Source: an uncultured Alphaproteobacteria bacterium
GTDB lineage: Bacteria > Pseudomonadota > Alphaproteobacteria > HIMB59 > GCA-002718135
Reading direction: 5' to 3'
Length of the DNA stretch: 45,022 nucleotides
Assembly (NCBI GenBank): GCA_902619045.1
Contig: CACNCX010000003.1
Location: 1-45,022, forward strand
The number at the start of each line of letters is the position of its first letter. Within the stretch, counting starts at the first letter, position 1. The translations under genes and the position numbers were made by a program. The notes under the pieces are model-generated. The model was not told where the DNA came from and searched no databases. It saw nothing but the letters and a program-made list of their open reading frames with translations. Shown here one piece after another: positions 7,727 to 37,436 of this stretch.

Positions 7727-8437
7727 TTATTTTTTCTTTGGAAGAATTGCTTCCCAGGTTGGGTCTGGATTACCATCAAATAGGGGCTCACCAGAAACTG
7801 CATAATAAATATCTTCAGCTATATTTTGTACATAATCACCAATTCGCTCTAGGTCTTTAACCATATATAAAAGACTTGTACATGCTGTGATTCTTTTTGG
7901 TTCTTCCATCATGTAGGTTAATAGTTGTCTTAATATTCCAAGATATTCTTCATCAATTTGTCTATCCATTAACCAAACTTTTTTTGCGGCTTGATCTGAA
8001 AATTCTAAAAAAGCTTTTATTACTTCACTAATCATTATATTTACTTGTGCACCCATATTAATAATATCTCTCGAAGGTTTTTCTGGCAAAACTATTTCTG
8101 CTACTGCTACTCTTTTGGCAATATTTGTTGCATGATCTCCTATTCTTTCTAGATCTTTATTGATTTTAATTGCTGAAAAAATTGTTCGTAAGTCTGCAGC
8201 CATCGGTTGTCTTTTGCCAAGTATTTCAACTAAGCTTTGATCAAGAGTATTATATGCTTTATCAATTACATCATCGTTTTCTATAATTTTTTCTGCAAAT
8301 TCTGTATCTTTATCCTTTAAACATTGAAGTGAGTCTTTTAGTTGATTTTCAACTAAACTGCCCATATCAACAATATTATTTTTAATGTCTCTAATTTCTT
8401 CATCATATGATTTTACAATATGTCCTTCTTGTTTCAT
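7727..8437 (-). CDS. phoU: phosphate transport regulator PhoU
   Basis: SYDEEIRDIKNNIVDMGSLVENQL, DLERIGDHATNIAKR and DLERIGDYVQNIAE repeats. Confidence 0.95.
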   Translation of the reverse strand: MKQEGHIVKSYDEEIRDIKNNIVDMGSLVENQLKDSLQCLKDKDTEFAEKIIENDDVIDKAYNTLDQSLVEILGKRQPMAADLRTIFSAIKINKDLERIGDHATNIAKRVAVAEIVLPEKPSRDIINMGAQVNIMISEVIKAFLEFSDQAAKKVWLMDRQIDEEYLGILRQLLTYMMEEPKRITACTSLLYMVKDLERIGDYVQNIAEDIYYAVSGEPLFDGNPDPTWEAILPKKK

Positions 8438-14556: not shown

Positions 14557-15369
14557 ATGAAATTTGAAACAAATAAAAAATTTTACCGCACAATTTGGAT
14601 TTCGGATACCCATCTAGGAACTAGTGGCTGTAAAAGCAACATGCTTTTAGAATTCTTAGAAGAAACAGATTCAGAATATTTATTTTTAGTAGGCGACATT
14701 GTTGATGGATGGCGCATGCGTAAGAAAATGTATTGGTCACAAGAACATAATGACGTTGTTCAAAAAGTTTTAAAGAAAGCGAAAAACGGAACTAGGGTAG
14801 TGCTTATTCCAGGAAATCATGATGAGGTATTAAAAGATTTTACAAATTTTTCTTTTGGAGAAATTTCTATCAAAAATGAAGATACGCATCAATTAGCTGA
14901 TGGAAGGAAAGTACTGATTACACACGGAGATGAATTTGATGCTGTGATAATTAATGCGAGGTGGTTAGCCAAAGTGGGATCAGCACTTTATGAATATTTA
15001 CTAAAGTTAAATAATGTATTTAATTTTATTCGACGAAAGATGGGCTTGTCTTACTGGTCACTGTCTCAATATTTAAAAAAGAAAACAAAGCATGCAACTA
15101 ACTTTATTAGTAATTTTGAGTTTGCTGTATCTGATAGAGCTAGAAGAGAAAATGCCGATGTTGTTGTATGTGGGCATATACATAGACCAGAAATAAAAGA
15201 ATTAAATGGTGTTCTCTATTGTAATGATGGTGACTGGATTGAAAGTTGTACAGCACTTGTTGAAGATGAAATTGGCAATTTATCAATTCTTAATTGGCCC
15301 GAAGAAAGAGAAAAATTAAAATTAATTTCTTTAGAAGAAAGACGAAAAATAAAAGAGGATGCAGCCTAA
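14557..15369 (+). CDS. plcP: PlcP-like metallophosphoesterase (phosphate-starvation phospholipase C family; LpxH-like fold), copy 1
   Basis: WISDTHLGT, LVGDIVDGW, PGNHDE, THGDEFD and CGHIHRPE metallophosphoesterase motifs; coupled to a GT4 glycosyltransferase next to the pho/pst operon. Confidence 0.8.
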   Translation: MKFETNKKFYRTIWISDTHLGTSGCKSNMLLEFLEETDSEYLFLVGDIVDGWRMRKKMYWSQEHNDVVQKVLKKAKNGTRVVLIPGNHDEVLKDFTNFSFGEISIKNEDTHQLADGRKVLITHGDEFDAVIINARWLAKVGSALYEYLLKLNNVFNFIRRKMGLSYWSLSQYLKKKTKHATNFISNFEFAVSDRARRENADVVVCGHIHRPEIKELNGVLYCNDGDWIESCTALVEDEIGNLSILNWPEEREKLKLISLEERRKIKEDAA

Positions 15370-16360
15370 AAAAATCGCGTTAATTAGTGATGCGTGGGTT
15401 CCTCAGGTAAATGGCGTAGTTACGACATTTCAAAGCGTTATACCTATTCTAGAAAAAAAAGGTTTTGAAATTAAAATATTACATCCTGAGATGTTTAATA
15501 ATTTTAGTTATCCTAGGTACAAAGAAATAAAAATTTCTTACAATACTAAAAAAGTTACTGAAAAATTTTTTAAAGAATTTAATCCAGATATTGTTCATAT
15601 AATGACTGAAGGTCCAGTAGGTTTTGCTGGTCGTAAGTACTGTCTTAAAAATAAACTACAATACACTTCTTCCTTTCACACCCGTTTTCCTGATTATATT
15701 AAACAAAGAGCTTTTATCCCAAAGAGATTTACATACTCCATATTAAGAAGACTACATAGTGATTCAGAAAGAGTTCTTGTTCCATCAGTTTCAATGCTAA
15801 ATGAGTTAAAAAAATATGATTTTAAAAATTTAGTAGTTTGGAATAGAGGTGTTGATACAGAATTATTTAATCCAAATAAAAGAGACACAAACAGTAAAGA
15901 TAGACAACTGACTTATGTTGGAAGAGTAGCAATTGAAAAAAATATTGAAGAATTTTTAAAACTTAAAGGAAATTATAATAAAATAGTTGTGGGGGATGGT
16001 CCTGAATTAGAAAAATATACTAATAAGTATCCTGAAGTAAATTTTGTTGGTTTAAAAACCGGAGAAGAATTAGCAAAGTATTATGCAAACGCAGATGTGT
16101 TTGTATTTCCTTCTAAAACAGACACTTTAGGAAATGTAATACTTGAAGCATTGGCTAGTGGAACACCAGTTGCTGCATATCCAGTAACTGGGCCTATAGA
16201 TGTATTAACAGATGAGAAGATTAACACTTTAGATAATGACTTATTACAATCAATTAAAAAAGCGCTTAAAGTAAAAAGGGTTGATTGTAGAAATTTTACA
16301 CTTAATTTAACATGGGATAAATGCGTGAAAGAATTTTTAGAATACATGGTAAACGTCTAG
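15359..16360 (+). CDS. agt: GT4 glycosyltransferase, Agt-like (diacylglycerol glycosyltransferase), copy 1
   Basis: SDAWVPQVNGVVTTF, TEGPVGFAGR, FVFPSKTDTLGNVILEALASGTPVAAYPVTGP; overlaps plcP copy 1. Confidence 0.75.
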   Translation: MQPKKIALISDAWVPQVNGVVTTFQSVIPILEKKGFEIKILHPEMFNNFSYPRYKEIKISYNTKKVTEKFFKEFNPDIVHIMTEGPVGFAGRKYCLKNKLQYTSSFHTRFPDYIKQRAFIPKRFTYSILRRLHSDSERVLVPSVSMLNELKKYDFKNLVVWNRGVDTELFNPNKRDTNSKDRQLTYVGRVAIEKNIEEFLKLKGNYNKIVVGDGPELEKYTNKYPEVNFVGLKTGEELAKYYANADVFVFPSKTDTLGNVILEALASGTPVAAYPVTGPIDVLTDEKINTLDNDLLQSIKKALKVKRVDCRNFTLNLTWDKCVKEFLEYMVNV

Positions 16361-18490: not shown

Positions 18491-20590
18491 ATGTTAAAAA
18501 AAAATACCGCTTATAACTATGCAAACAGGGAATTGTCTTGGCTAAAATTCAATGAAAGAGTCTTAAGTCAGACATCTGATAGTAAAATTCCACTTTTAGA
18601 AAGGGTTAGATTTTTATCAATAGCATTCTCTAATTTAGATGAATTTTTTATGGTTAGAGTAGCAGGATTGAATGTTCAAAAATTTTCACGAAATAAAAGT
18701 TTTGATGGATTAACACCACAACAACAACTCAAGCTGATAGATAAAGAAACATCGAAGATGATTTCAAATATAAAATCAATATGGATAGATTTACTAAGAG
18801 AGCTTTCAGAAAACAAAATCCATATAGATGTAGAAAAAACACTGAAAACAAAAGATAAAACATTTATTAAAAATTATTTAGAAGAAAATAATTGGGGGGT
18901 TTTAACGCCAATTATTATTGATCCATCTCACCCATTTCCTTTTATACCAAATAAAGAAACAACCTTAGTATGTCGTTTAATGAATAATAAAAAAACTTTT
19001 TATGGAATACTAAGAGTGCCAGAGGGATTAGAAAAATTTATTAAATTACCTGGTAAAAAAACACGTTTTGTATCTATGGAGACAGCCCTACTTATTTCTT
19101 TAAAAGAAATTTTCCAGTGTGATAGGGTTTTGGATAAAGGTGTTTTTAGACCAATTAGGAATAGTGAATTAGAATTAGGGGGTGAAGGAGAAGATTTATT
19201 TTTAGTATTTCAAAAAGCTATTTTTGAGAGAAGAAGACAAGAGGTAATAAGAATTGATTTTGATGAAAGTATATCTAGTCACTTAATTAAATTCATAAAT
19301 AAAAAACTTAACTATAAGGATGTAAATACATATAAACTGCCAATACCCGTTAATCTTTCGAGTATAGAGTCAATTTTTTTGAAAGATTTTAAAAAATTAT
19401 TTTTTCCAAAATTTAAGGTACGATTTCCTGAAAGAATTAAAGATTTTAAAAATGATTATTTTAAAGCTATAGCAAATAAAGATATTGTTATTCATCACCC
19501 TTTTGAATCTTTTGAAGTAGTGACGCAGTTTATTGATCAAGCTGCAGATGATCCAAAAGTCTTATCAATAAAACATACTTTATATCGAACTACTGATGAC
19601 TCACCAATAGAAGCAAGTTTAGTTAGAGCAGCACAAAAAGGAAAATTAGTAACTGTCATTATAGAGTTGCAAGCACGTTTTGATGAAGAGCGTAACTTAA
19701 AATGGGCAAAAGAATTAGAATTAGCTGGAGCGCAAGTTGTTTTTGGCAATATTGATATGAAAACTCATGCAAAAATTACACTTGTAACAAGGAAGCAAAT
19801 GAATTCTGTTGTAAATTACGCACATTATGGAACAGGTAATTATCACCCGAGAAATGCAAGAGTTTATATGGATTTATCTTACTTCACCTGTGACAAAACA
19901 TTAACAAATGATGCTGCAAAAATGTTTAATTATTTAACTAGTTATTCTGAACCAACAACAATAAAAAAAATAGTATATTCTCCAATAACTGCAAGAAACA
20001 AATTAAATGAACTAATTAGAAATGAAATTACAAATGCTGGAAAAAATAAACCATCTGGAATAGTATGTAAGTGTAATGCTCTTGTTGATAAACAAATTAT
20101 TGATGAATTTTATAAAGCATCTCAAAAAAATGTAAAAATTGAATTGTTGATAAGAGGAATTTGCTCTCTAATACCTGGTAAAGAAAATCTATCAGAAAAT
20201 ATAGTTGTTAAAAGCATAATTGGTCGTTTTTTAGAACATACGAGAATATATTGTTTTTATAATGGTCATAAATTCCCTCATAGAAAAAATATCTTGTTTA
20301 TTTCTTCTGCCGATTTAATGCAAAGAAATCTAGATAGGCGGGTTGAAACATTTATTCCTATTGAAAATGAAACTGTACATGAACAAATATTAAATCAGAT
20401 CTTAATTGCCAGTATGACAGATAATACAAATTCTTGGCAAATGTTAAGTAATGGCAATTATCAGAAAAAAGAAATATCAAGCAAAGAGAAAAAATTTTCC
20501 TCTCACAATTTTTTTATCAAAAATCCAAGCTTGTCTGGGAGGGGTTCAGCAAAACTCAAATCTAGAGCTAAGTCTAATTTAAAAATTTGA
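18491..20590 (+). CDS. ppk1: polyphosphate kinase 1
   Basis: NRELSWLKFNERVL N-terminus, SIKHTLYRT, THAKITLVTRK, YAHYGTGNYHPRNARVY. Confidence 0.96.
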   Translation: MLKKNTAYNYANRELSWLKFNERVLSQTSDSKIPLLERVRFLSIAFSNLDEFFMVRVAGLNVQKFSRNKSFDGLTPQQQLKLIDKETSKMISNIKSIWIDLLRELSENKIHIDVEKTLKTKDKTFIKNYLEENNWGVLTPIIIDPSHPFPFIPNKETTLVCRLMNNKKTFYGILRVPEGLEKFIKLPGKKTRFVSMETALLISLKEIFQCDRVLDKGVFRPIRNSELELGGEGEDLFLVFQKAIFERRRQEVIRIDFDESISSHLIKFINKKLNYKDVNTYKLPIPVNLSSIESIFLKDFKKLFFPKFKVRFPERIKDFKNDYFKAIANKDIVIHHPFESFEVVTQFIDQAADDPKVLSIKHTLYRTTDDSPIEASLVRAAQKGKLVTVIIELQARFDEERNLKWAKELELAGAQVVFGNIDMKTHAKITLVTRKQMNSVVNYAHYGTGNYHPRNARVYMDLSYFTCDKTLTNDAAKMFNYLTSYSEPTTIKKIVYSPITARNKLNELIRNEITNAGKNKPSGIVCKCNALVDKQIIDEFYKASQKNVKIELLIRGICSLIPGKENLSENIVVKSIIGRFLEHTRIYCFYNGHKFPHRKNILFISSADLMQRNLDRRVETFIPIENETVHEQILNQILIASMTDNTNSWQMLSNGNYQKKEISSKEKKFSSHNFFIKNPSLSGRGSAKLKSRAKSNLKI

Positions 20591-20605
20591 AAATAGAATT
20601 TAATC

Positions 20606-20654
20606 CCACTCACAATAATTGGACATAAGCAGGAAGAAATAATACTGCGAGTGG
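20606..20654 (-). other. 49-nt hairpin, copy 1 (candidate structured RNA/terminator)
   Basis: Minus strand CCACTCGCA ... TGTGAGTGG: 9-bp stem with one G-U wobble. Confidence 0.55.
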
Positions 20655-20729
20655 TAAGATGTAATTAAATTTTATTTTTTACAGACGTGTTAATAGAATA
20701 TTAAATTTTTATAAATTAAACTAATTTTT

Positions 20730-20796
20730 TAATTTATTGGTTTTCAAATAAATTTTTTAGTTCCTTCAATTTTTGAAAATTGAATCTCTTACTTCT
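20730..20796 (-). pseudogene. remnant of arsC-like 3' end
   Basis: Minus-strand gaagtaagagattcaattttcaaaaattgaaggaactaaaaaatttatttgaaaac matches the last ~60 bp of the arsC-like gene at 23747-23807 with a 1-nt deletion. Confidence 0.65.
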
Positions 20797-20816
20797 TAGT
20801 AACTATAATTTTAAAA

Positions 20817-21812
20817 TTAATTTTTTGCATTTACAACATTTGATAGAAATTGATTTGCACATTTATCCCAAGTAAATTGCATTGCAAATTTTCTACAATC
20901 TTTTCTATCAATCTTTAAGGCTTTATTAAGTGAGTTTTCAATATTATTATCAAGGCTATCAATTAATGAGTTTTTTAAAATATCTTTAGGACCTGTTACT
21001 GGGTAAGCAGCCACTGGTGTGCCAGAGGCTAAAGACTCTAAAATTACATTTCCAAATGTATCTGTTTTGGATGGGAATACCAATGCTTCAGCATTTGCAT
21101 AATAGTTTGCTAGATCTAGACCTTTTTTCATCCCAACGAAAGACACATATGGATATTTATTTTGTAATCGTTGCTTTTCTGGACCATCTCCAACAACAAT
21201 TTTATGCATCTTAGTTCTTATTTCTAAAAACGCTTCGATGTTTTTTTCTAATGAAACCCTACCAATGTAAACAATATACTTTTTCATTCCCTTTTTTCTT
21301 TTTAAAGGATTAAATAATTCAGTATTAACTCCCCTTGACCAAATTTTAAGATTTTGAAATTGATATTTAGTTAATTCGTTACGCATAGATATTGTTGGGA
21401 CCAATACATTACATGCATTTTTATGAAAATTTTTTAAAAAAGAGTACCCAATTATTTTTGGTATCATTATTCTTTGCTCTATATATTCTGGAAATCTCGT
21501 ATGAAAAGAGGTTGTATATCTCAACTTATTATTCTCACAGAATTTTTTCCCCGCAATTCCAACTGGTCCTTCAGTGGCAATATGTATAACATCTGGATCA
21601 TAATCACCAAAAAATTTTTCTGTTATTTTTTTTGTATTAATTGCTATTTTTATTTCCTTATACCAAGGATAACTAAAATTAGTAAACATCATTGGGTGGA
21701 GTACTTCAATTTGATACTTTTGTTTTAAAAATGGATTAATATGTTGGTATGTATTTACCACACCATTAACTTGGGGAAGCCAAGCATCGGTAATGATCGC
21801 TAATTTTTTCAC
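20817..21812 (-). CDS. agt: GT4 glycosyltransferase, Agt-like, copy 2
   Basis: TDAWLPQVNGVVNTY, ATEGPVGIAGKKF, LVFPSKTDTFGNVILESLASGTPVAAYPVTGP; clear paralogue of 15359-16360. Confidence 0.75.
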   Translation of the reverse strand: MKKLAIITDAWLPQVNGVVNTYQHINPFLKQKYQIEVLHPMMFTNFSYPWYKEIKIAINTKKITEKFFGDYDPDVIHIATEGPVGIAGKKFCENNKLRYTTSFHTRFPEYIEQRIMIPKIIGYSFLKNFHKNACNVLVPTISMRNELTKYQFQNLKIWSRGVNTELFNPLKRKKGMKKYIVYIGRVSLEKNIEAFLEIRTKMHKIVVGDGPEKQRLQNKYPYVSFVGMKKGLDLANYYANAEALVFPSKTDTFGNVILESLASGTPVAAYPVTGPKDILKNSLIDSLDNNIENSLNKALKIDRKDCRKFAMQFTWDKCANQFLSNVVNAKN

Positions 21813-22615
21813 ACTAATACACTTTCTGCTAGTTTGTTATGTTTATGTTGAAAAATTTTTTCTCTTTCAATTGACCAGTCAATAAGGGATAATTGTCCCT
21901 CATTATTTTCCACTAGCGCAGAACAACTCTCAACCCAATCACCATCATTGCAATATAAAACTCCATTTAATTTTTTTATAATGGGCTTATGAATATGGCC
22001 GCACACAACAACATCAGCATTTGCTCTTTTAGCACTATCAGATACGGCAAACTCAAAGTTAGAAATAAAATTCGTGGCTCTTTTTGTTTGATGTTTGAGA
22101 AATTGAGATAATGACCAATAAGATAGACCTAGTTTTCTTCTGACAAAATTTAGATAGTTATTCAACTTTAATATAAATTCGTATAGAGATGACCCAATAC
22201 TTGCCAGCCATTTAGCGTTTAATATAACTGCATCAAATTCATCACCATGTAAAACAAGGGCATTTCTTCCATCAGCTAATTTGTGTGTAAACTTATTTTT
22301 TATTGATATATTCCCTAGTGAAAAACTTGTGTAACTTTTCACAAGTTCGTCATGATTACCTGGGATAAATATTACTTTTGTACCTTTTCTTGCTTTACGC
22401 AAAATCTTCTGGATAATGTCATTATGAGTTTGATGCCAATAAATTTTTTTTTTCATTCTCCATGCATCAATAATATCGCCAACTAAAAATAAATATTTTG
22501 AATCTGTTGATCTCAAAAATTCAAGAAGCATTTCACTCTTGCTATTTTCTGTTCCTAGATGAAGATCAGATATCCATATAGTTCTATAATATGAAACTGA
22601 TTGCTGATCTTTCAT
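21809..22615 (-). CDS. plcP: PlcP-like metallophosphoesterase, copy 2
   Basis: WISDLHLGT, LVGDIIDAWRM, PGNHDE, LHGDEFDAVI, CGHIHKP; clear paralogue of 14557-15369. Confidence 0.8.
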   Translation of the reverse strand: MKDQQSVSYYRTIWISDLHLGTENSKSEMLLEFLRSTDSKYLFLVGDIIDAWRMKKKIYWHQTHNDIIQKILRKARKGTKVIFIPGNHDELVKSYTSFSLGNISIKNKFTHKLADGRNALVLHGDEFDAVILNAKWLASIGSSLYEFILKLNNYLNFVRRKLGLSYWSLSQFLKHQTKRATNFISNFEFAVSDSAKRANADVVVCGHIHKPIIKKLNGVLYCNDGDWVESCSALVENNEGQLSLIDWSIEREKIFQHKHNKLAESVLV

Positions 22616-22642
22616 TTTATTAATAAATAATAGAAAGAATTT

Positions 22643-22671
22643 GTTAAAATTTTATTTCAATTACATTAACT
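22643..22671 (-). promoter_or_regulatory. Pho-box-like repeats upstream of plcP copy 2
   Basis: Minus strand AGTTAAT-GTAA-TTGAAAT-AAAA-TTTTAAC, 11-bp period. Confidence 0.4.
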
Positions 22672-22692
22672 AAATTTTTTTTTACAGAAGTA

Positions 22693-23535
22693 TTAATTAA
22701 ATATTGAGTTTTTATTACTTGGATCTAATCTATAAGTGCTATTCCTTAAAAATTTTGTAATCTCTATAAGATTGCCAATTTCTTTTATGGTTTCAAAGGG
22801 TATTCTTTGTCCAATATGAACATCAATTTTTTTTCCCATTCTTCTTTTAAGTTCATATATCATTAAAGAATATCGAAAGACTTGCCCAATTTTATCAGCA
22901 ACATGAAAAAGTTCGCTATTTTGTCCTTCAAAAAAAATTGGGAGGACAGGTGATTGAGTTTTCATTATTATTTTTGAAGTAAATTGTTTCCATTCACGAT
23001 CTATTGCTTTGATTCCTTTTTTTAATTTTGGTTTCGTTGAAACTGATCCTGATGGAAAAATGATTAGTGCCCCATTATTTCTTAAGTGTTCTTCGCATTC
23101 TTTACGTGCAGCGATATTATTTATTAAAGCATTTCTATTTTTTGAAAAATCAAGAGGAATAATTTTATTCTTAATAAGATCTGCTCCTTGTAAAACTTTA
23201 TGCGTAATAATTTTGTAATCTTGTCTAATTTTACTAATTAAAGAGCATATTGTAAGACCATCAGCTATTCCAAATGCATGGTTAGCGATTACTACAAGTT
23301 TGCCATTTTTAGGAATATTACTTTTAGAATGATAATGTGTCTGAACACGGAGACCTAATCTTTCAATTGCATCATGCCAAAAATTCTCTGGAGGTAAATT
23401 TTCTCTTAAATAATCCTCATACAACTTACGTAACTTAATTTTACCCGTTCCCAATTCGGTTAATTGAATAATAATCTTTCCAACAGGATTAACTTCGGAG
23501 TTAGAAAAGGTAAGCGCTGGTTTATTAATTTTCAT
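22693..23535 (-). CDS. PlsC-like lysophospholipid acyltransferase family protein
   Basis: VIANHAFGIADGLT (NHxxxxxD-type), IIFPSGSVSTKP; upstream of plcP/agt copy 2 on the same strand. Confidence 0.75.
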   Translation of the reverse strand: MKINKPALTFSNSEVNPVGKIIIQLTELGTGKIKLRKLYEDYLRENLPPENFWHDAIERLGLRVQTHYHSKSNIPKNGKLVVIANHAFGIADGLTICSLISKIRQDYKIITHKVLQGADLIKNKIIPLDFSKNRNALINNIAARKECEEHLRNNGALIIFPSGSVSTKPKLKKGIKAIDREWKQFTSKIIMKTQSPVLPIFFEGQNSELFHVADKIGQVFRYSLMIYELKRRMGKKIDVHIGQRIPFETIKEIGNLIEITKFLRNSTYRLDPSNKNSIFN

Positions 23536-23566
23536 AAAATTTACTTTAAATTCTTAATTTTATAAT

Positions 23567-23584
23567 GTTAAACAATTGTTAAAG
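23567..23584 (-). promoter_or_regulatory. Pho-box-like repeat upstream of the acyltransferase gene
   Basis: Minus strand CTTTAAC-AATT-GTTTAAC (7-4-7). Confidence 0.4.
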
Positions 23585-23609
23585 TACTCGAAAAAGGAGA
23601 AATAAAAAA

Positions 23610-23807
23610 TTAATCCCACTCACAATTATTGGTAATTAGCAGGAGGAAATAATACTGTGAGTGGTAAGAAGCATTTAAATTTTATTGTTTACAGATAGAT
23701 TAATGGAATATTAAATTTTTATAAATTTAATTAATTTTTAACTTCATTAATTCTCAAATAAATTTTTTAGTTCTTTCAATTTATCAAAAATTGAATCTCT
23801 TACTTCT
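23610..23807. repeat. direct repeat copy 2 (~198 bp), overlapping the 3' end of the arsC-like gene
   Basis: See 20600-20796. Confidence 0.85.
23616..23664 (-). other. 49-nt hairpin, copy 2 (candidate structured RNA/terminator)
   Basis: Minus strand CCACTCACA-GT-ATTATT-(17-nt loop with CCTCCT)-AATAAT-TGTGAGTGG followed after 5 nt by TTTTTT. Confidence 0.6.
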
Positions 23808-24166
23808 CTAAATTTATCTAATTGGTTTGAACTAAAATGATCTGATGCCGGATCATCAAATGGTATTGAAAATATCTGAGCTTTGGAATTTAAAACTGGA
23901 CATACCTCTTCTTTACAAAGCGTAAAAACGGTATTTAATTCATCTCTAAATTTGTTGTCTAAACTTTCAAAATCTTTTGAATAATGTTTTGATATATCAA
24001 TATCGATTTCACCCATAACCTCGATAGCATTAGGATTAACTTCTTTGGGCACTGATCCTGCACTTTGAATAATGCAGTTAGGATATAATTTTTTTGCAAT
24101 TCCTTCAGCCATTTGACTTCTTGCTGAATTAGCAACACACATAAAAAGAATATTTTTATTTTTCAT
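23747..24166 (-). CDS. arsC: ArsC-like arsenate reductase (low-molecular-weight phosphatase fold)
   Basis: MCVANSARSQMAEGIAK (CX5R P-loop), FTLCKEEVCPVL and DDPAS motifs. Confidence 0.85.
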   Translation of the reverse strand: MKNKNILFMCVANSARSQMAEGIAKKLYPNCIIQSAGSVPKEVNPNAIEVMGEIDIDISKHYSKDFESLDNKFRDELNTVFTLCKEEVCPVLNSKAQIFSIPFDDPASDHFSSNQLDKFREVRDSIFDKLKELKNLFEN

Positions 24167-27420: not shown

Positions 27421-28518
27421 ATGGATAAAAAATTATTAACCCCTGGGCCTCTCACGACATCGATGTCAACAAAAGAGGCAATGCTTCATGATTGGGGTTC
27501 GAGAGATACAAAATTTATTGATCTCAATGCATCAATTAGAGATTCCCTTGTTAAATTAATAGACGGTGAAGATAAATATCAATGTGTTCCAATGCAGGGA
27601 AGTGGAACTTTTGCTGTAGAGTCGATGGTGAGCTCTCTTACTCAAAAAGATTCTAAAATTCTGATTCTGATCAATGGTGCTTACGGACAAAGAATGAAAA
27701 AAATGTGCACATATTTAGGGAGAGATTTTATTGAATATGAAGTTGCTGAACATGAAGTACATGACATCAATAAAATTGAAGAGTTAATTGATAACAACAA
27801 CTTAACACACGTCTTTGCTGTATATTGTGAAACAACATCGGGTATTTTAAATCCTATTGAAGACATTGCAAAATTGGTTGAAGGGAAAAATTTATCGTTA
27901 TTCATCGATGCAATGAGTGCCTTTGGTGCATTACCCTTAAGTTCTAAAACAATTACTTTTGATGCTGTAGCCGCTTCATCAAACAAATGCTTAGAAGGTG
28001 TGCCAGGTGTTGGTTTCATTCTTGTAAAAAATGAAGTTATTCAAAATGCAAAAGGCAATAGTCACTCACTAAGTCTAGACTTGTATGATCAATGGCAAGC
28101 AATGGAAAAAAATAAACAATGGCGATTTACACCTCCAACACACGTATTAGCTGCATTCAACCAAGCTATTGAAGAACATAAAGAACAAGGCGGTGTAGAA
28201 GGAAGAGGTAAAAGATATAAAAAAAATTGTGAAATTATTTGTAATGGAATGAAAGAGTTGGGATTTGAGCAACTACTTCCTGATAATTTACAAGCACCAA
28301 TTATTATTACTTTTAAACAACCTAATGATCCTAAATTTAACTTTGACCAATTTTATAATGCTCTTAGTGAAAAAGATTTTTTAATTTATCCAGGAAAACT
28401 AACAGTGGCAGAAACTTTTAGAATTGGGTGTATTGGTAATTTAAATGAACAAGACATGATGGATACAATAAAAGCTGTAAAAGAAGTTGTTACTGAGTTG
28501 GGACTAACATTAAACTAA
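27421..28518 (+). CDS. phnW: 2-aminoethylphosphonate-pyruvate transaminase
   Basis: LLTPGPLTTSMSTKEAMLHDWGSRD, VPMQGSGTFAVESMVSSL, SSNKCLEGVPGVGFIL. Confidence 0.93.
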   Translation: MDKKLLTPGPLTTSMSTKEAMLHDWGSRDTKFIDLNASIRDSLVKLIDGEDKYQCVPMQGSGTFAVESMVSSLTQKDSKILILINGAYGQRMKKMCTYLGRDFIEYEVAEHEVHDINKIEELIDNNNLTHVFAVYCETTSGILNPIEDIAKLVEGKNLSLFIDAMSAFGALPLSSKTITFDAVAASSNKCLEGVPGVGFILVKNEVIQNAKGNSHSLSLDLYDQWQAMEKNKQWRFTPPTHVLAAFNQAIEEHKEQGGVEGRGKRYKKNCEIICNGMKELGFEQLLPDNLQAPIIITFKQPNDPKFNFDQFYNALSEKDFLIYPGKLTVAETFRIGCIGNLNEQDMMDTIKAVKEVVTELGLTLN

Positions 28519-28525
28519 CAAAACA

Positions 28526-29158
28526 ATGACAAAAGAAATTGAAATACCTTTAGTTAAAGCAACAAATGAAAATCTTAAAGGATATGGGTATTTAATCGAT
28601 AGTTTTGAAAATAGTGATATTGAAATTGTTACTTGGCCAAAACAAGGATGGCGTGACATAGAAGAGGGAACTGGTAATGAAGGTGGAACTACCGAAGGTT
28701 CTTTTGATACCTGGTGGCAAGGTGACGTGCTTTATGGGCAAAATAATGCTGTTCAACATAAGAGCGATTATGAAGTAGATGGAAAATATATACTGGGTTA
28801 TGCCAATAATCCTGATCAAGAATTACAAAAAGATAAATATTCAGATCCAACAAAAATTTTTTTATGGCATGCAAATTATCATCCTGATGGAGGTCAGCTT
28901 TTCTTTCCTGAAGAAAATAAACCATTTATTTGTCCTTTAGCCTTACCTACAGACGACATTGAACCAGAACATTTTAAAGCATTTTATTGTGACGGATCAA
29001 AAGGTTTGTATATTCATCCAAATATTTGGCATGAAGGGGTGTTTCCAGTTACAGAAAAACAATCGTTTCAAGGAAAACAAGGTAAAGTACATGCAAGAGT
29101 TAGCATCGACTTAAAAGAGGAATTTAATAAGTATATTTATTTTAAAACTGCGATCTAA
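28526..29158 (+). CDS. ureidoglycolate lyase (AllA)-like cupin protein
   Basis: LWHANYHPDGGQLFFPE...FYCDGSKGLYIHPNIWHEGVFPV; 8 nt after phnW, same strand. Confidence 0.65.
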   Translation: MTKEIEIPLVKATNENLKGYGYLIDSFENSDIEIVTWPKQGWRDIEEGTGNEGGTTEGSFDTWWQGDVLYGQNNAVQHKSDYEVDGKYILGYANNPDQELQKDKYSDPTKIFLWHANYHPDGGQLFFPEENKPFICPLALPTDDIEPEHFKAFYCDGSKGLYIHPNIWHEGVFPVTEKQSFQGKQGKVHARVSIDLKEEFNKYIYFKTAI

Positions 29159-29178
29159 TTATAAATTTATATTTAATA

Positions 29179-29967
29179 ATGAAAATTATTCACCTTTCAG
29201 ACCCTCATATTTATATTGATAAGATTCATGGCATAGATCCTGTCAGTAAATTTAAAAAAGCATTAACTCATATAAAAAATAATCATGGTGATGCAGATTT
29301 ATTTGCCATCACAGGTGATATTACAGACTTAGGTGATAAAGATTCTTATCAGTTATTTTTAAAAATAATTGATGAAGCAGGTCTGCCGAAGAATTTAAAT
29401 CCTCAACTAATTATAGGTAATCATGATAACAGAGATGAATTTAAAATAAACTTTCCTAATATTGAAACCGATCCAAATGGATTTATTCAATACTTTAAGG
29501 ATATAGATAATAAACGTTTAATTTTTATAGATACTAATCTGATTAACACTCACCAAGGACATTATTGTGAAGAGAGGCAAGAATGGTTAAATAATATTTT
29601 AAGTAAGACTAATACGGATACGTACATCTTTATGCATCATAATCCACTGGCATTAGTAAAAGAGGAAAGTGATGGAATAGGATTACAACAAAAAAAAGAG
29701 TTTCAACAAATTTTAACTAAAAATAATAATATAATAAAACATATTTTTTTTGGTCATCAACACATTACAAGTTCTGGCTCTTATTGTGGTATTACTTTTT
29801 CCTCCCCAAGAAGTACTTGGTCTCCTCTAATACCTAACTTTTCAAATGAATATCGTTTAGGAACGGCTAATACAGATACAAATTATAATGTTGCAATAAT
29901 TCGATCTGACGCCTTAATTATTCATACAGAGGATTTTTTAAAAACAGAAGTTAATTGGTTTAAATAA
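29179..29967 (+). CDS. CpdA/GpdQ-like metallophosphoesterase
   Basis: HLSDPHIY, ITGDITDLGD, IGNHDNR, HHNPLAL, FFGHQHI motifs. Confidence 0.82.
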   Translation: MKIIHLSDPHIYIDKIHGIDPVSKFKKALTHIKNNHGDADLFAITGDITDLGDKDSYQLFLKIIDEAGLPKNLNPQLIIGNHDNRDEFKINFPNIETDPNGFIQYFKDIDNKRLIFIDTNLINTHQGHYCEERQEWLNNILSKTNTDTYIFMHHNPLALVKEESDGIGLQQKKEFQQILTKNNNIIKHIFFGHQHITSSGSYCGITFSSPRSTWSPLIPNFSNEYRLGTANTDTNYNVAIIRSDALIIHTEDFLKTEVNWFK

Positions 29968-29971
29968 AAAA

Positions 29972-31078
29972 TTATTTTTTTTCGATTACAAATATTTCAT
30001 TGTTAAAATAAAGACCTTTATTTTTAGCAACAATGTTTTGAACAATTTTTTCATAGTTTTTAGTTTTTTCTACTTTCATTACTTTGTCGTCATCCATTTG
30101 ATTGACATATATGGAGGCATTCCAAGCAGAAAAAACTAATGATGTCGCTATACCTCCGCTGATTTCTGTTGGTAGAGCTCTCAATTTACATTTAATAATT
30201 CTTTTTTCTCCAAAAGATAATCTTCTTAATAAATCTTTATCTAAATTTTTCTTAAGATAAGAAATGATACTATTTCCAAGAGAAGGAAATGGGTCCTCTT
30301 TTGGCCAAATTTTACGAATTATTTCATTAGCAGGATCTTTTCCTGAAGCATGAATAGTTAATAATTTCCCTTTTGATTTTAACGCTCTAATCATTGGTTC
30401 GATGACATATTTTGATTTCTTTTCTGCTGTGATTCTTGAACGATAAGGCTGTGAAGCAATAATAAGATCAAATTTATTATCTGATTTTTTTTTGGTAGGT
30501 ATTAATTCATTTACATTAAATTCTTGATCTTCGCGGTAGATAACCATGACTGAAGGCTCTTTATAAGTATGGTTACCTGACTTTTTATTAATTTCTATAT
30601 TCCATTTTTTTTCTAAAAATTCATTTTGTTTTCTTAATTGTTGGGCAAATTCAAGAGAGGTATCTCCTTTTAATTTAATAATATTCCAATTAATTTTTTT
30701 CTGTTTAACTTCATTTTTTGATTTTAGGTTTGCAGCTTCAGCGTAGTGTAGATTTGAAATGACAAAAACCGTATTCTTATGTTCAACAAACCTATCGGGT
30801 AATTTTTCTAAACCTAATCTTACATCTTCTATGCTTATTTCTTTTGTGCAAACTAATAAAGGTACGTTAGGCTTAGCCTCGTGGCACTGACGCATAACAT
30901 TCATAAGTAAGGAACCATCACCCATACCAGCATCAAATATTTTTATACCAGGTTTTTGAGGTTTAATTTTATTTACGTGAGGGCGTATCGCATCAGCAAT
31001 TTGATTTTTTTCATTTGTTGTTGTGACAAATAATAAGTATTTTTGTCTGTTATCATAAAACCTGAAATTTTTTTTCAT
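29972..31078 (-). CDS. SAM-dependent methyltransferase-like protein
   Basis: KIFDAGMGDGSLLMNVMRQC (motif I-like) and FDLIIASQPYRSR. Confidence 0.6.
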   Translation of the reverse strand: MKKNFRFYDNRQKYLLFVTTTNEKNQIADAIRPHVNKIKPQKPGIKIFDAGMGDGSLLMNVMRQCHEAKPNVPLLVCTKEISIEDVRLGLEKLPDRFVEHKNTVFVISNLHYAEAANLKSKNEVKQKKINWNIIKLKGDTSLEFAQQLRKQNEFLEKKWNIEINKKSGNHTYKEPSVMVIYREDQEFNVNELIPTKKKSDNKFDLIIASQPYRSRITAEKKSKYVIEPMIRALKSKGKLLTIHASGKDPANEIIRKIWPKEDPFPSLGNSIISYLKKNLDKDLLRRLSFGEKRIIKCKLRALPTEISGGIATSLVFSAWNASIYVNQMDDDKVMKVEKTKNYEKIVQNIVAKNKGLYFNNEIFVIEKK

Positions 31079-31080
31079 TA

Positions 31081-32193
31081 CTAATAAAGTCCCATTGATT
31101 TAGCAGAAGAGATGAAGGCTTCTTTATTGCCAATAAAGTTTTTACCTCGTTCCCCTAAAAACGCATCATCTACTATATTATTCCATTCTTGAATAGGAAC
31201 TTTTATTTCATTTAAGTTAAGAGGAACCTCTAAAGAACGCATAAATTCACTCAGATGATTTGCGGCATTCTCTAGGTTATCGTTAAAAATTAGTTTTAGT
31301 CTTTCTTCAGCTACACTATCAATGCCAACCATACTTTTAGTAATCATGGGTAATGTAAATGAGCAAGCAATACCATGTTGAATGCCGTAATTGAGCGTCA
31401 CAGGGTATGATAGATTGTGCGCAATAGCAGTTTTTGTATTGGAAAACGCTAAGCCAGCATGAACGCATGCCAGTGCAATGTTTGAACGTAATTCAACGCT
31501 TCTTAAATCTTTAGCGAGAAGTGGTAAATTTTCTAATACTAATTTTGATGCTTGTATTGCATGAGAAGCAGAAATTGGGTTTGCATTAATATTCCAAATA
31601 CTTTCCATTGAATGAGAGAGAGCATCTAAACCTGTTGAAATGGTCAAGCCTAAAGGCTTATCAACCATAATTGATGGATCGATAATTGCTTTTTCTGCAT
31701 AAAGAGATTTATGCGCCAAAGATAATTTATTGTTTTTTTCTTTATCCCAAATTGTGGCCCAACACGTAAGCTCACTTGATGTTCCTGAAGTTGTAGGTAT
31801 TGCAATAATCTTGATTGGATTTTTGACTCTTGGACTTTTCTTATTGCGAACGAAATCTGTTAGATATTCTTGTTTATCTTTAAAAGCAGCAATTGCTTTA
31901 GCTGTGTCTGTAACAGAGCCACCACCTATAGCTAAAATATAATCTACCGATTCATTGATTGAAGAAAATTTTTTTTGTAGCTCTAAAATATCCTTATAAT
32001 CTGGATTAGGCTGAACATCCGTCATAATGGATAGTGGTGGATTTGAAGAAGATTTTAATTCATCGCTATATTTTTTAAAAATTTCTTCTGGATGAGTGAT
32101 TATGATGTAGTTCTTATTTTTAAGAGCATCATGTACTTCTGTAAATCTATTTTCTCCAAAGATAATTTCAACAGGATTAAAATAATTCCACAT
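31081..32193 (-). CDS. iron-containing alcohol dehydrogenase, phosphonate-associated type (candidate phosphonoacetaldehyde/hydroxyethylphosphonate oxidoreductase)
   Basis: ILAIGGGSVTDTAKAIAAF, AIPTTSGTSSELTCWA, GLDALSHSMESIW, IAHNLSYPVTLNYGIQHGIACS. Confidence 0.8.
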   Translation of the reverse strand: MWNYFNPVEIIFGENRFTEVHDALKNKNYIIITHPEEIFKKYSDELKSSSNPPLSIMTDVQPNPDYKDILELQKKFSSINESVDYILAIGGGSVTDTAKAIAAFKDKQEYLTDFVRNKKSPRVKNPIKIIAIPTTSGTSSELTCWATIWDKEKNNKLSLAHKSLYAEKAIIDPSIMVDKPLGLTISTGLDALSHSMESIWNINANPISASHAIQASKLVLENLPLLAKDLRSVELRSNIALACVHAGLAFSNTKTAIAHNLSYPVTLNYGIQHGIACSFTLPMITKSMVGIDSVAEERLKLIFNDNLENAANHLSEFMRSLEVPLNLNEIKVPIQEWNNIVDDAFLGERGKNFIGNKEAFISSAKSMGLY

Positions 32194-32197
32194 TACA

Positions 32198-33277
32198 TTA
32201 AATTGATTTTGCCGCTTTAGTTAAAATTGTCATTTTCTCAATTGCTTGTTCTCGAGTAAAGAAACCTAAACCACAATCTGGTGCAGCTATTAAGCGGTGT
32301 TCATCAATATGTTCAAGTGAATCTTTGATACGAACTCTTACTTCTTCAACAGATTCCATTCTGCTTTTTGCAATATCAATAAATCCAAAAATTACTTTTG
32401 TTTTAGTAAATTTTTCTAAAAGATTTAAATCATTATGCCTATGTGAGTCTTCTAAAGATACTTCATCAATAGTTGAATCATCTACAAGTGATGCAATTCT
32501 ATCATAAGCATCTAAATCAGCCTTTTTATAACCTTCTGAATCTAATGAATTAGGATAACCACAACAAATATGGCAAACACGTTGCACTTCTTTAGGTATA
32601 CCATGCATCATTCTTTCTAAATTTTCCATACCATATGAATGAGCTTCATCGGGCTTTCTAGCAAATACTGGTTCATCAATTTGAATATACTGACAACCTG
32701 CATCCACAAGTGCCTTAATTTCTTTATTGAGAGCTAATGCTAAATCAAAACCAAGTTTTTTCATGTCATCATAGTAATTGTTGGCAATTGAATCTGTAAT
32801 TGTCATTGGTCCAGGTAGCGTAATTTTAACTGGGTTTTTTGTAAATTGTTGTGCACTCTTCCAGTCTAAATGCATACGTATTTCTTTACTTGAAATCGGT
32901 GCAACAATAGTTGGAAGGTCAGCTTCGAACGCACCTTGTCTTACTGACTTATGTGTAACTTCCTTAAAACTTACTCCATTTAAAAATCGGCATTGATATA
33001 ATACGTAACTCTCGCGTCTGACTTCTCCATCTGTTGGAACATCAATACCCGCATTTACTTGATCAGTTATAACTTCTTTAATTGCTGCTAAAAATAATTT
33101 TTCAGCATCTGCACCTGCAGACTCTAATGCTTTTTCATATGCGCCAGGTGACCAATTTGATAATAATCCTTTTGACGCTTTTCTCTCTTCTTCTGATTTT
33201 GTCCCTAAAAACCAATCTTGAATAGGTGTTTGTTTCGGTTTTGGATAAGCACCTATTGTAGTTGTTTTAAGAGGCAT
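32198..33277 (-). CDS. MetE-core (cobalamin-independent methionine synthase C-terminal) family protein
   Basis: TTTIGAYPKP, DVPTDGEVRRESY, GPMTITDSI, IQIDEPVF, zinc-ligand-like HIC...E...DCGLGF; lacks the N-terminal half of MetE. Confidence 0.82.
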   Translation of the reverse strand: MPLKTTTIGAYPKPKQTPIQDWFLGTKSEEERKASKGLLSNWSPGAYEKALESAGADAEKLFLAAIKEVITDQVNAGIDVPTDGEVRRESYVLYQCRFLNGVSFKEVTHKSVRQGAFEADLPTIVAPISSKEIRMHLDWKSAQQFTKNPVKITLPGPMTITDSIANNYYDDMKKLGFDLALALNKEIKALVDAGCQYIQIDEPVFARKPDEAHSYGMENLERMMHGIPKEVQRVCHICCGYPNSLDSEGYKKADLDAYDRIASLVDDSTIDEVSLEDSHRHNDLNLLEKFTKTKVIFGFIDIAKSRMESVEEVRVRIKDSLEHIDEHRLIAAPDCGLGFFTREQAIEKMTILTKAAKSI

Positions 33278-33303
33278 CTATTTTTACTCCCATTTAAATT
33301 TAA

Positions 33304-33334
33304 AATAAAACAGCGGCTTTTATAAAGCCGCTGT
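33304..33334 (-). terminator. intrinsic terminator after the ugpB-like gene
   Basis: Perfect 11-bp stem ACAGCGGCTTT-TAT-AAAGCCGCTGT at 33310-33334 with T-rich tract on the minus strand. Confidence 0.85.
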
Positions 33335-33364
33335 AATAAAAAGTTAATAATAAATAATCTCAAA

Positions 33365-34618
33365 TTACATAAGATCGTTTATTTCTTCCATCATTTCTTC
33401 TTGGAGATCACCCATATCATCAGCGTCGCCTGTAGCAATTTCTTCTGTGTAATCATAGATTACCTGTGTAACAGCTAATCCATTTTCTCCAGGATATGCA
33501 AACCAATCTGCAAGAAGTGGAAGTTGTTCAACTGCAGTAAGTTTATTAGGGTTTTTACTATAGAAATCACCTAATAATTCATTCGCTGCTTTGTTTGGTG
33601 GAACATATCCAGTTGTTTCAGCAACTAATGCAGCACCGATACCTGATGTAATGAACTTTAAGAAAGTCCATGCAGCATCAACTCTTGCTGGATCATCAGA
33701 TGTAGACACTAACATTGCAGCGTTTCCACCTGCTGGTAATCTTGCTGGTGTTCCATTGTTAACTCCAGCCATTCCAGGGAATGGTGCAGTTTTTAAAACA
33801 AAGTCTGCCTTTGCAGCATTAACTGAACCCAAGCTTGAAGTAGACCAGAACATCATACCAATAGTACCTGCGTTAAACGCAGCTTGACCATCAGCAATTG
33901 AATAGTTTGGCATATTACATCCGCTCATGATTGCTTTCATTTGCTCTAACGTTGCAAGTCCTGCATCACCACCCATATTTACAGCTCCATCTTTAACCAT
34001 TGGAACATTCTGAGTGTGCATTAATGCTTGGTGGAACCAGTTACCTGTGATGTTCCAACCAAAGTATAGAGTTCCTTTACCTGCTGCTTCCAATTTATTA
34101 CATGCTGCAATAACTTCGTCCCAGTTAGTTGGAATACTATTTACACCTGCTTCAGCTAATAAATCCATGTTATAATATCCAACTGGCGTTGATACAGAAA
34201 ATGGTAATCCATAAACTTCACCACCAAATGTTGAAAGACTTAACATAGCAGAATGGTAACCATCTTTTTCAAAAGCAGCTTCTTTTGCAATAAATGGCTC
34301 TAAAGACTTAGCAATACCTTTGTCAACTAGAGGTGCTTGTCTGTTAAGACCTTGCATTGTTACATCTGGTAAATTACCTGAAGTAGACTCTCTGAAGATT
34401 GTTGCAGTTGCATCCTCATAGTTTTCATAAGTTGCTCTAAATTTAACTTGAATATCTGGATGTGCTTTTTCAAACTCTGGCATAATAGCTTGAAAAGTTA
34501 CATCGAATAATCCTGAATAAGGATAAGCTACTTCTATTTCAATAGACTTAGCTGAATTAACAGAACCATAAAAACCAAAAGCTAATACGGCAGCCAATCC
34601 TGTAATTAATTTTTTCAT
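33365..34618 (-). CDS. ABC transporter extracellular solute-binding protein, family 1 (UgpB-like)
   Basis: IEIEVAYPYSGLFDVTFQAIMPEFEKAHPDIQVKFRA, YYNMDLLAEAGV, signal peptide. Confidence 0.85.
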   Translation of the reverse strand: MKKLITGLAAVLAFGFYGSVNSAKSIEIEVAYPYSGLFDVTFQAIMPEFEKAHPDIQVKFRATYENYEDATATIFRESTSGNLPDVTMQGLNRQAPLVDKGIAKSLEPFIAKEAAFEKDGYHSAMLSLSTFGGEVYGLPFSVSTPVGYYNMDLLAEAGVNSIPTNWDEVIAACNKLEAAGKGTLYFGWNITGNWFHQALMHTQNVPMVKDGAVNMGGDAGLATLEQMKAIMSGCNMPNYSIADGQAAFNAGTIGMMFWSTSSLGSVNAAKADFVLKTAPFPGMAGVNNGTPARLPAGGNAAMLVSTSDDPARVDAAWTFLKFITSGIGAALVAETTGYVPPNKAANELLGDFYSKNPNKLTAVEQLPLLADWFAYPGENGLAVTQVIYDYTEEIATGDADDMGDLQEEMMEEINDLM

Positions 34619-34670
34619 TTAATCCCTCCGATTCAAATATAATAATTAATCTAACACGTAGCCTCAAAGG

Positions 34671-34699
34671 GTTACAATTTTATTACGAAAATATTACTA
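34671..34699 (-). promoter_or_regulatory. Pho-box candidate upstream of the ugpB-like gene (three perfect-period 7-mers)
   Basis: Minus strand TAGTAAT-ATTT-TCGTAAT-AAAA-TTGTAAC. Confidence 0.65.
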
Positions 34700-34755
34700 A
34701 AAAATAAGCTTATTTTTCCACAGCATTAAGAAAAATTAGAGAAAAACTGGTTTAT

Positions 34756-36198
34756 TTACCAAGGTAGCGAAAAGGTTTTTACATTAGTAAAACTTTTCAT
34801 TGCTTCAATAACACCCTCTTTGTAACCAAGACCTGAATCTTTAATTCCTCCAAAAGGAGACATTTCAATTCTATAGCCTGGAACTTCCCAAATATTTACA
34901 GTGCCAACATTTAAGCCTTGAATATATTTTTTTGCTCGCATGAAGTTATTTGTACATACACCAGATGATAATCCGAATGCAGTTGAATTAGATATTTTCA
35001 TTACAGCTTCATCGTCATTAGGCACACGAATGATTGGTATAACTGGACCAAATGTTTCTTCTAAAACTAATTCACTTTTAGGATCAACATGATCTACAAC
35101 TATTGGAGGTAACAAAGCACCCTTTCTTCCAGGGTGATATAAAATTTTTGCACCGTCTTCTTCTGCCATTGAAACTCTTTTATCAAAAAGTTCTGCAGCT
35201 TGAGCATTAACAACTGTACCTAAGTCTGTTTCCATATTCATAGGATCACCAAATTTAATTTTCTTAGCACGCTCAAGAGCCATTTCAACAAATTGATCTG
35301 CAATAGATTCTTGAACCAGTATTCTTTTAACAGCTGTACAACGTTGACCAGAATTTTTCGTTGCTCCCGTAACAGCTAGCTCAACAGCTTTTTTAAGATC
35401 ATCACCATCTAAGTCATTTAAAACAATTAATGGATCATTACCACCTAACTCAAGAACAGTTCTTTTGTATCCAGCTTGTTCGGCAATTAATTTTCCTACA
35501 CCTACACTACCTGTAAAAGTAATGAGATCAATATTTGGATTCTTGATCATTTCTGATCCGATATCTTGAGGCCATCCAGTTACAACTGAAAACATTTCTG
35601 GTGGCAGACCTGCTTCATATAAAACATCAGCGAGTACCATTGCTGTTAAAGGTGTTAATTCTGTCTGCTTACATACTGTACAATTATTAGTTGCAATTGA
35701 AGGAGCAATTTTATGCGCTACCATATTCAAAGGGTGATTAAATGGAGTGATTGCTGAAATTGCCGTTAAAGGTTCTCTTATGGTAAATATTTTTCTCGCT
35801 TTTCCATGCGGAGTTAAATCACAAGAAAATATTTCTCCATCATCAAGAATACAAAGTTGAGCCGTTAAAGAAAAGACATCAAAAGCTCTTCCTACTTCGT
35901 ATAGAGAATCTTGTTTTGAAATACCAAGTTCTAAAGTAATAATATCAGAAATTTCTTCTTTTCTTTTAACAAGTACTTCTGCAGCAGTTTGAAGAATTTT
36001 TTGTCTCTCGTATCTTGTAAGTTTAGGTTGGTAATTTGCAGCAATATCTAAAGCCTTTCTTGCATGCTCTGCAGTACCGGCTGGAACCGTTCCGATTACT
36101 TCACCTGTAAAAGGGTACTCAACATTTATTGTTTTATCTGAAGTAACTTTTTCTCCAGCAATACGCATTGCTTCATTAATCATTTTTTTGTGCATCAT
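34756..36198 (-). CDS. phnY: aldehyde dehydrogenase, phosphonoacetaldehyde dehydrogenase type
   Basis: ALDH signature [26 protein letters not shown]; 4-bp overlap with phnA. Confidence 0.85.
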
Positions 36199-37436
36199 AG
36201 GGCTCCATTTATTGCATAATAAAATGCATCATAGTTATATAATTGTTTGCTAGTATCTAAGTTTTGTAATTTTAAATTTGATATGAATGGAACCTCTCTT
36301 TCATGGAGTCCTCCATGAGAACGTAAAGGTTCATTTAATCCAGAAAGATTGTGTTTATCTTCCGATGAACCAATAGTCATAAATTCTGAAGACATACATA
36401 TAATATCCCCCATTCTATCAGGAGGTAAATTATAAGTAGAGCATCCTTCATCTTTTGTTAAAACAACTTCTATATCTTTTATTTCTTTAATAGCATTTAC
36501 AACTGAATCTACCCTGCTCTTGTCTTCTAAATAAATTGTTGCAAAAGAACCAAGTGAACCATGATGAACGACATATGGATCTGTAATTGGTAGGATGACT
36601 TTAGCCATGTTTGGTTCAAATTTTTTATCTAAATAATCTTGTAAAAATATTGCATTAGGTGAACCATCTTCTTTTGATTTTGGTTTCATTCCGTGATCTG
36701 CTGTGATGATTATAGAAACATTCTCCTTATTTAAAAGACCAATATATTTATCAAACATTGCATAAAATTTATTTGCTGTTTCATTTCCCGGAGCATATTT
36801 GTGTTGAATATAATCTGTAGTCGATAAATACATGATATTTGGTTTGAACTCTTCAAGAAGCTTTACACCTGCAGCCATTACAAATTCAGAAAGTCCTTCA
36901 GAATATACTTCTGGCACTGGCATCCCCAACCAATCGTTTACATTATCTATACCATTGAGATCTTTTGCTGCTTGATCAGATTTTTCAGCAGAAAAACAAA
37001 TAGCTCTCTCATCATCAAAACTTAATCCGTTTCCTAAAAGTGTTCTCAACTTGTCTTTTGCAGTAACAAGAGCAATTTTAGAACCAGAATTGTAAAATTT
37101 TTCAAAAATAGTTGGTGCTCGCATATATTTTGGATCATTCATCATTACTTCTTCACCAGTCTCAGGTGTATAAAAGAAGTTTCCGCATATACCGTGTACA
37201 GAACTTGGTTGGCCTGTTACAATCGAAATGTTATTTGGATTTGTAAAACTTGGAATAGCGCTGTGAACAAGTAGGTTTTCACCACTTGCAATTAATTTAT
37301 CAAGATTTGGTGTAAGATTAGATTTTGATGCTTCTTCGAGATACTCTTTTTGACTACCATCAAGGCATATAACAATAGCAGTTTTTGAGAAAGAGCTTGG
37401 ATATTCTCTTTTATTAATTTCTAAATTATCGGACAC
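36195..37436 (-). CDS. phnA: phosphonoacetate hydrolase (GTG start)
   Basis: Alkaline phosphatase superfamily protein: [63 protein letters not shown]. Confidence 0.88.

Follow-up and report, generated by a model that had tools for sequence, protein, structure and literature searches.

The closest described system is the phosphate-related flexible genomic island of HIMB59, fGIp-H (Molina-Pardines et al. 2023, PMC10734472), and the main text of that paper proposes homologous recombination as the mechanism by which the whole island is exchanged. A second relevant system is the plcP-agt gene set of marine bacteria: PlcP strips phospholipid head groups and Agt then glycosylates the resulting diacylglycerol, activities that have been experimentally demonstrated in relatives, and adjacent plcP and agt genes constitute the type 2 arrangement, seen in SAR11 HTCC7211 (Sebastian et al. 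2015, PMC4796936). Finally, cassettes have been described in Ca. Actinomarinales whose flanking repeats are tRNA fragments, read as signs of site-directed recombination (PMC7771536).

The window, by which we mean the whole stretch of 45,022 nucleotides that was analysed, comes from a marine alphaproteobacterium of the HIMB59/AEGEAN-169 order and holds pstSCAB, phoU, phoB, phoR, ppk-sixA-ppx, a channel gene, two plcP-agt pairs and an arsC-like gene (Table 1). The locus studied here lies inside fGIp-H, with which, as far as the main text of PMC10734472 describes it, the window shares the order and the gene set (pstSCAB, phoU, phoBR, ppk, ppx, sixA, a glpF-like channel, a phosphatase), including a paralogous phosphoesterase and glycosyltransferase, there named LpxH and RfaG. 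PstC, PstA, PstB, PhoU and PhoB exceed their NCBIfam cut-offs, and PstS and PhoR score strongly, yet below theirs; ppk, sixA and ppx with the upstream channel gene are all present, as are the phosphoesterase and glycosyltransferase with their core paralogues. The reference genome of that paper, AG-891-K05, is also among the loci that we recovered, which come from single-cell and metagenome-assembled genomes titled marine Alphaproteobacteria (AG-series, MarineAlpha5 bins). In the main text of PMC10734472 we found no mention of repeats, sub-cassette polymorphism, mosaic junctions, the acyltransferase or lipid remodelling. Genes for phosphonate use flank the phosphate island within the window (27421-37436). 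The name arsC for the gene at the left border is plausible but unproven, because its arsenate-reductase scores fall below the curated cut-offs (TIGR02691, 93 bits against 174); the family-level match to PF01451 is above threshold.

Table 1 Features of the locus and its surroundings in the window
Feature	Position	Strand	Remarks
plcP1-agt1	14557..16360	+	core paralogue pair, outside the cassette
ppk, polyphosphate kinase	18491..20590	+	right border of the slot, convergent with arsC
Repeat copy 1 (agt/ppk side)	20600..20796	-	decayed arsC tail (about 20737-20796), AT-rich spacer, hairpin
Hairpin of copy 1	20606..20654	.	9-bp stem, long loop
agt2, glycosyltransferase family 4	20817..21812	-	PF13692, PF00534, PF13439
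plcP2, calcineurin-like phosphoesterase	21809..22615	-	PF00149
Third, partial copy of the repeat spacer	22681..22705	-	directly after the acyltransferase stop codon
Acyltransferase (cassette)	22693..23535	-	resembles the acyltransferase half of OlsF and GlsA, below NCBIfam cut-offs
Repeat copy 2 (arsC side)	23610..23807	-	true arsC 3' end, AT-rich spacer, hairpin
Hairpin of copy 2	23616..23664
arsC-like gene (low-molecular-weight phosphatase / thioredoxin-type arsenate reductase family)	23747..24166	-	left border of the slot
phnW-type 2-aminoethylphosphonate transaminase	27421-28518		flanks the phosphate island
Phosphonate-associated alcohol dehydrogenase	31081-32193		flanks the phosphate island
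Phosphonoacetate hydrolase phnA	36195-37436		flanks the phosphate island

We consider it likely that the acyltransferase, plcP2 and agt2 form an optional cassette of this island that has been gained and lost by homologous recombination; this recombination would depend on RecA, the cassette would go back to a single founding event, and it would presumably benefit the cell. The initial annotation had described the three genes as bracketed by two direct repeats, and their coordinates bear this out. An ungapped repeat search aligns 20581-20779 with 23591-23789 (199 nt, 83% identical, spacing 3010 bp), and BLAST widens the match to 20581-20796 against 23591-23810 (84% over about 217 nt, E = 3.9e-63), so that the two intervals match end to end as had been claimed; a BLAST search of the genome assembly returned no other comparable copy, the next best match being 75% identical over 68 nt (E = 3e-4). 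Since the similarity takes in about 60 bp of arsC coding sequence, the repeat is not an artefact of the hairpin or of low-complexity AT sequence, an explanation that the initial annotation had itself raised. Also as described there, the coding part of copy 2 is the intact 3' end of the arsC-like reading frame and that of copy 1 is an orphan fragment with a 1-nt deletion, in which the stop codon is lost as well. The deletion is missing from copy 1 of several relatives and is therefore later decay. The third, partial copy of the spacer had escaped the earlier description; this sequence is matched exactly at three places in the window, where 0.39 matches would be expected when up to three mismatches are allowed. 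Weak extra matches to the arsC tail/spacer part, 77% identical over about 70 nt, were observed away from the locus in two relatives (L150 of G053, 8298-8368; L151 of G042, 7965-8041).

Both repeat copies hold a hairpin with a stem of 9 bp or longer and a long loop. A diverged relative whose arsC is 68% identical (G004) keeps an equivalent hairpin after arsC, in which the outermost pair has changed on both sides, from C-G to T-A. Lying between convergent genes, the hairpin is probably a terminator. A known RNA family was considered and rejected, as the hairpin has no match to any Rfam family.

The cassette holds a metallophosphoesterase with an adjacent family-4 glycosyltransferase, and both plcP copies retain the metallophosphoesterase motifs DxH, GNHD and GHxH in their translations. 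By homology, its products are predicted to act as PlcP and Agt, and the benefit would presumably be extra capacity to replace phospholipids with glycolipids under phosphate starvation. The adjacency of plcP and agt is shared with the genes described by Sebastian et al. (PMC4796936); unlike there, the pair is here a second, older paralogue pair, accompanied by an acyltransferase, flanked by repeats and optional in the population. The copies plcP1 and plcP2 are about 70% identical, agt1 and agt2 are likewise old paralogues, and the paralogue trees, in which some deep nodes are moderately supported, place both splits before the divergence of these genomes. One relative, G006, carries both plcP-agt pairs in tandem at the core locus (L174, 1166-4840), which may be the ancestral arrangement. 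Given the old split and this tandem layout, the cassette was acquired or relocated rather than copied from plcP1-agt1 here, and a recent duplication of that pair as its source is ruled out by the trees. The initial annotation had suggested that a duplication or insertion next to arsC installed the second plcP/agt set; the insertion next to arsC holds, but an origin of the second set by duplication finds no support, and the stretch that is in fact duplicated is the arsC tail and hairpin and, in larger alleles described below, also the ppk tail. Many genomes of the family hold a second acyltransferase about 57% identical to that of the cassette. We looked beside this core paralogue for an ornithine-lipid neighbour, and no lipid genes were seen at the locus examined.

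We searched for the repeat in 110 genomes of the family, all of them draft assemblies (53-96% estimated completeness), and drew gene maps of the recovered loci and a full alignment of the repeats. The cassette lies between two repeats in 31 genomes, the window's and 30 others, in the order arsC-repeat-[extra]-acyltransferase-[extra]-plcP2-agt2-repeat-ppk. Seventeen of the 110 have the empty site, arsC-single repeat-ppk, which is the cassette-free allele that the initial annotation had proposed to look for, and two (G044, G105) have arsC-repeat-acyltransferase-ppk. As in a flexible island, the position is the same and the borders are conserved, and the content between arsC and ppk varies among empty, 3-kb, 4.8-kb and 9-kb forms. 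The incompleteness of the assemblies gives some ground for reading the empty alleles as artefacts of single-cell amplification or of assembly across repeats, as does one empty genome, G022, which is the only one of its class and switches between repeat copies (see below) in a tract of 7 nt, and which could be an amplification chimera. Against this, two classes of 11 and 5 members account for the 16 other empty genomes; each is found repeatedly, in separate assemblies, and has alleles of its own, and none of the 16 has plcP2 elsewhere, nor was it found elsewhere in the assembly of any empty genome. An artefact is thus a highly improbable explanation of the empty alleles.

A tree of the 16-kb rpoB region had suggested transfer of the cassette between deeply separate species. 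The region around rpoB-rpoC (L176-L215) shows a local excess of divergence, with only 79-93% identity among these genomes vs 92-99% to the window genome, for most of the same genomes, in two other core stretches; it is therefore unrepresentative, and we discarded the tree. The argument for such transfer stands only for the outliers, namely G046, with 77% and 82% identity in the two core stretches yet 93-100% in the cassette proteins, and G044/G105, with 71-74% core identity yet about 95% in acyltransferase nucleotides to other cassette genomes.

Copies 1 and 2 differ consistently at 43 diagnostic sites of the alignment, and at these sites all 17 empty repeats pass from copy-2 states at the arsC side to copy-1 states at the ppk side. 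Agreement at the outer ends of the repeat is to be expected whatever the model, since these ends border arsC and ppk; what is informative is that the switch falls at three different positions (no repeat having more than two exceptional sites) and that for two of the three classes it lies well within the repeat. In G022, the one repeat present equals, with 0 mismatches, a fusion of the two copies (copy 2, then copy 1) from any one of five cassette genomes; the repeat of G050 is likewise a 0-mismatch fusion of both copies of G069, with 1 mismatch in the remainder of the G050 class; the 11-genome class is 5-9 mismatches away from a copy-2/copy-1 fusion and may represent the ancestral state. The neighbouring alleles are those of cassette genomes as well: G022 is 99.86% identical to cassette genomes in ppk and 99.76% in arsC, vs at most 99.0% and 97.8% to empty ones, arsC of the G050 class is 99.5-100% identical to that of G069, and G050, G091 and G069 have one arsC allele and one pit allele in common, the latter only about 86% identical to other genomes. 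The ppk of one further empty genome, G087, is identical to the window's. Two cassette genomes, G039 and G027, have a mosaic copy 2, which indicates exchange in the other direction too. The junctions are thus mosaics of parental alleles, and the switch points together with the exact fusions lead us to conclude that the repeats served as recombination sites for loss or exchange of the cassette, the excision that the initial annotation had envisaged. Loss is the best-supported direction for G022 and the G050 class; for the other alleles gain and loss are indistinguishable.

One could also imagine that the cassette is exchanged only within larger segments, through crossovers in flanking genes between cells, the repeats being passive leftovers of its insertion. 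The flanking genes are indeed a patchwork (G030 has the same arsC, repeat and ppk alleles as the rest of its class, but identity falls to 82-87% in the genes that come next), and homologous recombination is proposed for the whole island in the main text of PMC10734472. Since crossovers in flanking genes also exchange the neighbourhood as a whole, the repeats are not the sole route. That they played no part is nevertheless unlikely, considering that empty alleles switch at three positions within the repeat, that G039 and G027 switch within copy 2, and that two empty alleles exactly join the two copies of a single genome.

Six larger alleles bear on the origin of the repeats. They carry a gene of 476 aa between the acyltransferase and plcP2, followed by an orphan ppk tail of 57-63 bp (84-91% identity), giving the order arsC-repeat-acyltransferase-476-aa gene-ppk tail-plcP2-agt2-arsC tail-repeat-ppk, in which the tails of both outer genes are duplicated around plcP2-agt2; the window's allele equals such an allele minus about 1.8 kb. 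The gene lies at 7275-8702 of L141 (G018) and also occurs in L138, L139, L140, L142 and L143. Its product has no Pfam match and, in our own reading of its sequence, appears to have beta-helix-like repeats and a signal-peptide-like start. In G044 and G105 only its last codons remain, between the acyltransferase and ppk. L138, L139, L140, L142 and L143 lack the phoU-like (DUF47) and pit genes that otherwise separate arsC from a phosphatase-like gene, so that low-affinity phosphate transport has been lost beside the cassette. In G027 (L139, 4215-8356) and G034 (L138) an operon of ugpB-ugpA-ugpE and an ATPase, a ugp-type glycerol-3-phosphate uptake transporter, has its insertion point precisely where the copy-2 hairpin ends, so other phosphorus genes, too, enter this slot. 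It is tempting to regard the arsC-tail/hairpin stretch as a recurrent landing pad, beside which the lipid cassette, the ugp-type transporter and the 476-aa gene were added and lost again, although we hold this broader reading to be rather doubtful.

Campbell-type single-crossover integration and tandem duplication are part of general bacterial genetics. Either would be expected to duplicate the tails of both outer genes, and a single such event best explains the origin of the locus; the left junction of copy 1, identical in all 31 genomes, likewise suggests one origin. As in the textbook case, the added DNA is bordered by duplicated tails of both genes and the repeats allow its loss; unlike it, the event here is old, the copies having diverged to 83-87% identity, and no circular donor was seen. 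Under the recombination model that we favour, DNA carrying plcP2-agt2 and a piece of the arsC-ppk junction would have joined the chromosome once in this manner, so that the arsC tail and hairpin came to be duplicated at one end and the ppk tail at the opposite end; a later deletion of about 1.8 kb in the window's form would have taken the extra ppk tail with it. The two copies of about 200 bp would then act as recombination sites, and a crossover between them, or between a filled and an empty chromosome inside them, would remove or transfer the cassette and leave a mosaic repeat. Identical tracts between the copies reach at most about 30 nt, which at 83-87% identity makes them poor RecA-type substrates, so crossovers within the repeats should be rare.

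Direct repeats that contain the 3' end of a gene resemble the attachment sites of tyrosine-recombinase elements, a likeness that might lead one to see in the cassette an integrase- or transposase-mobilised element with the repeats as its attachment sites. No recombinase gene is present in the 3-kb, 4.8-kb or 9-kb forms, in line with the initial annotation, which had seen neither transposase nor integrase; there is no tRNA in the window, and the repeats, about 200 bp long and 15% diverged, show crossovers at scattered points and no single fixed core at their border. We also found no viral or phage relative, for which reason carriage of the cassette by a phage or virus was rejected, and mobilisation by a dedicated enzyme is very unlikely. 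The locus resembles the Ca. Actinomarinales cassettes (PMC7771536) in being a small cassette of a streamlined marine genome beside a duplicated gene end, and differs from their tRNA-fragment repeats in that the repeat is the tail of a protein gene with variable crossover points.

With the wider island already described in the main text of PMC10734472, the locus is a well-resolved new case of a known kind. For optional nutrient genes that streamlined ocean bacteria carry without mobile elements, the mechanism of exchange is usually inferred indirectly; here the crossovers are legible base by base, since filled, empty and exact recombinant alleles coexist among close relatives. Should the landing-pad reading prove true, the population would have a reversible slot for phosphate-starvation genes that needs no dedicated recombinase. 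Only some members of this abundant ocean population carry the three spare lipid-remodelling genes, and the locus offers a practical marker by which cassette gain and loss could be tracked along phosphate gradients in metagenomic data.
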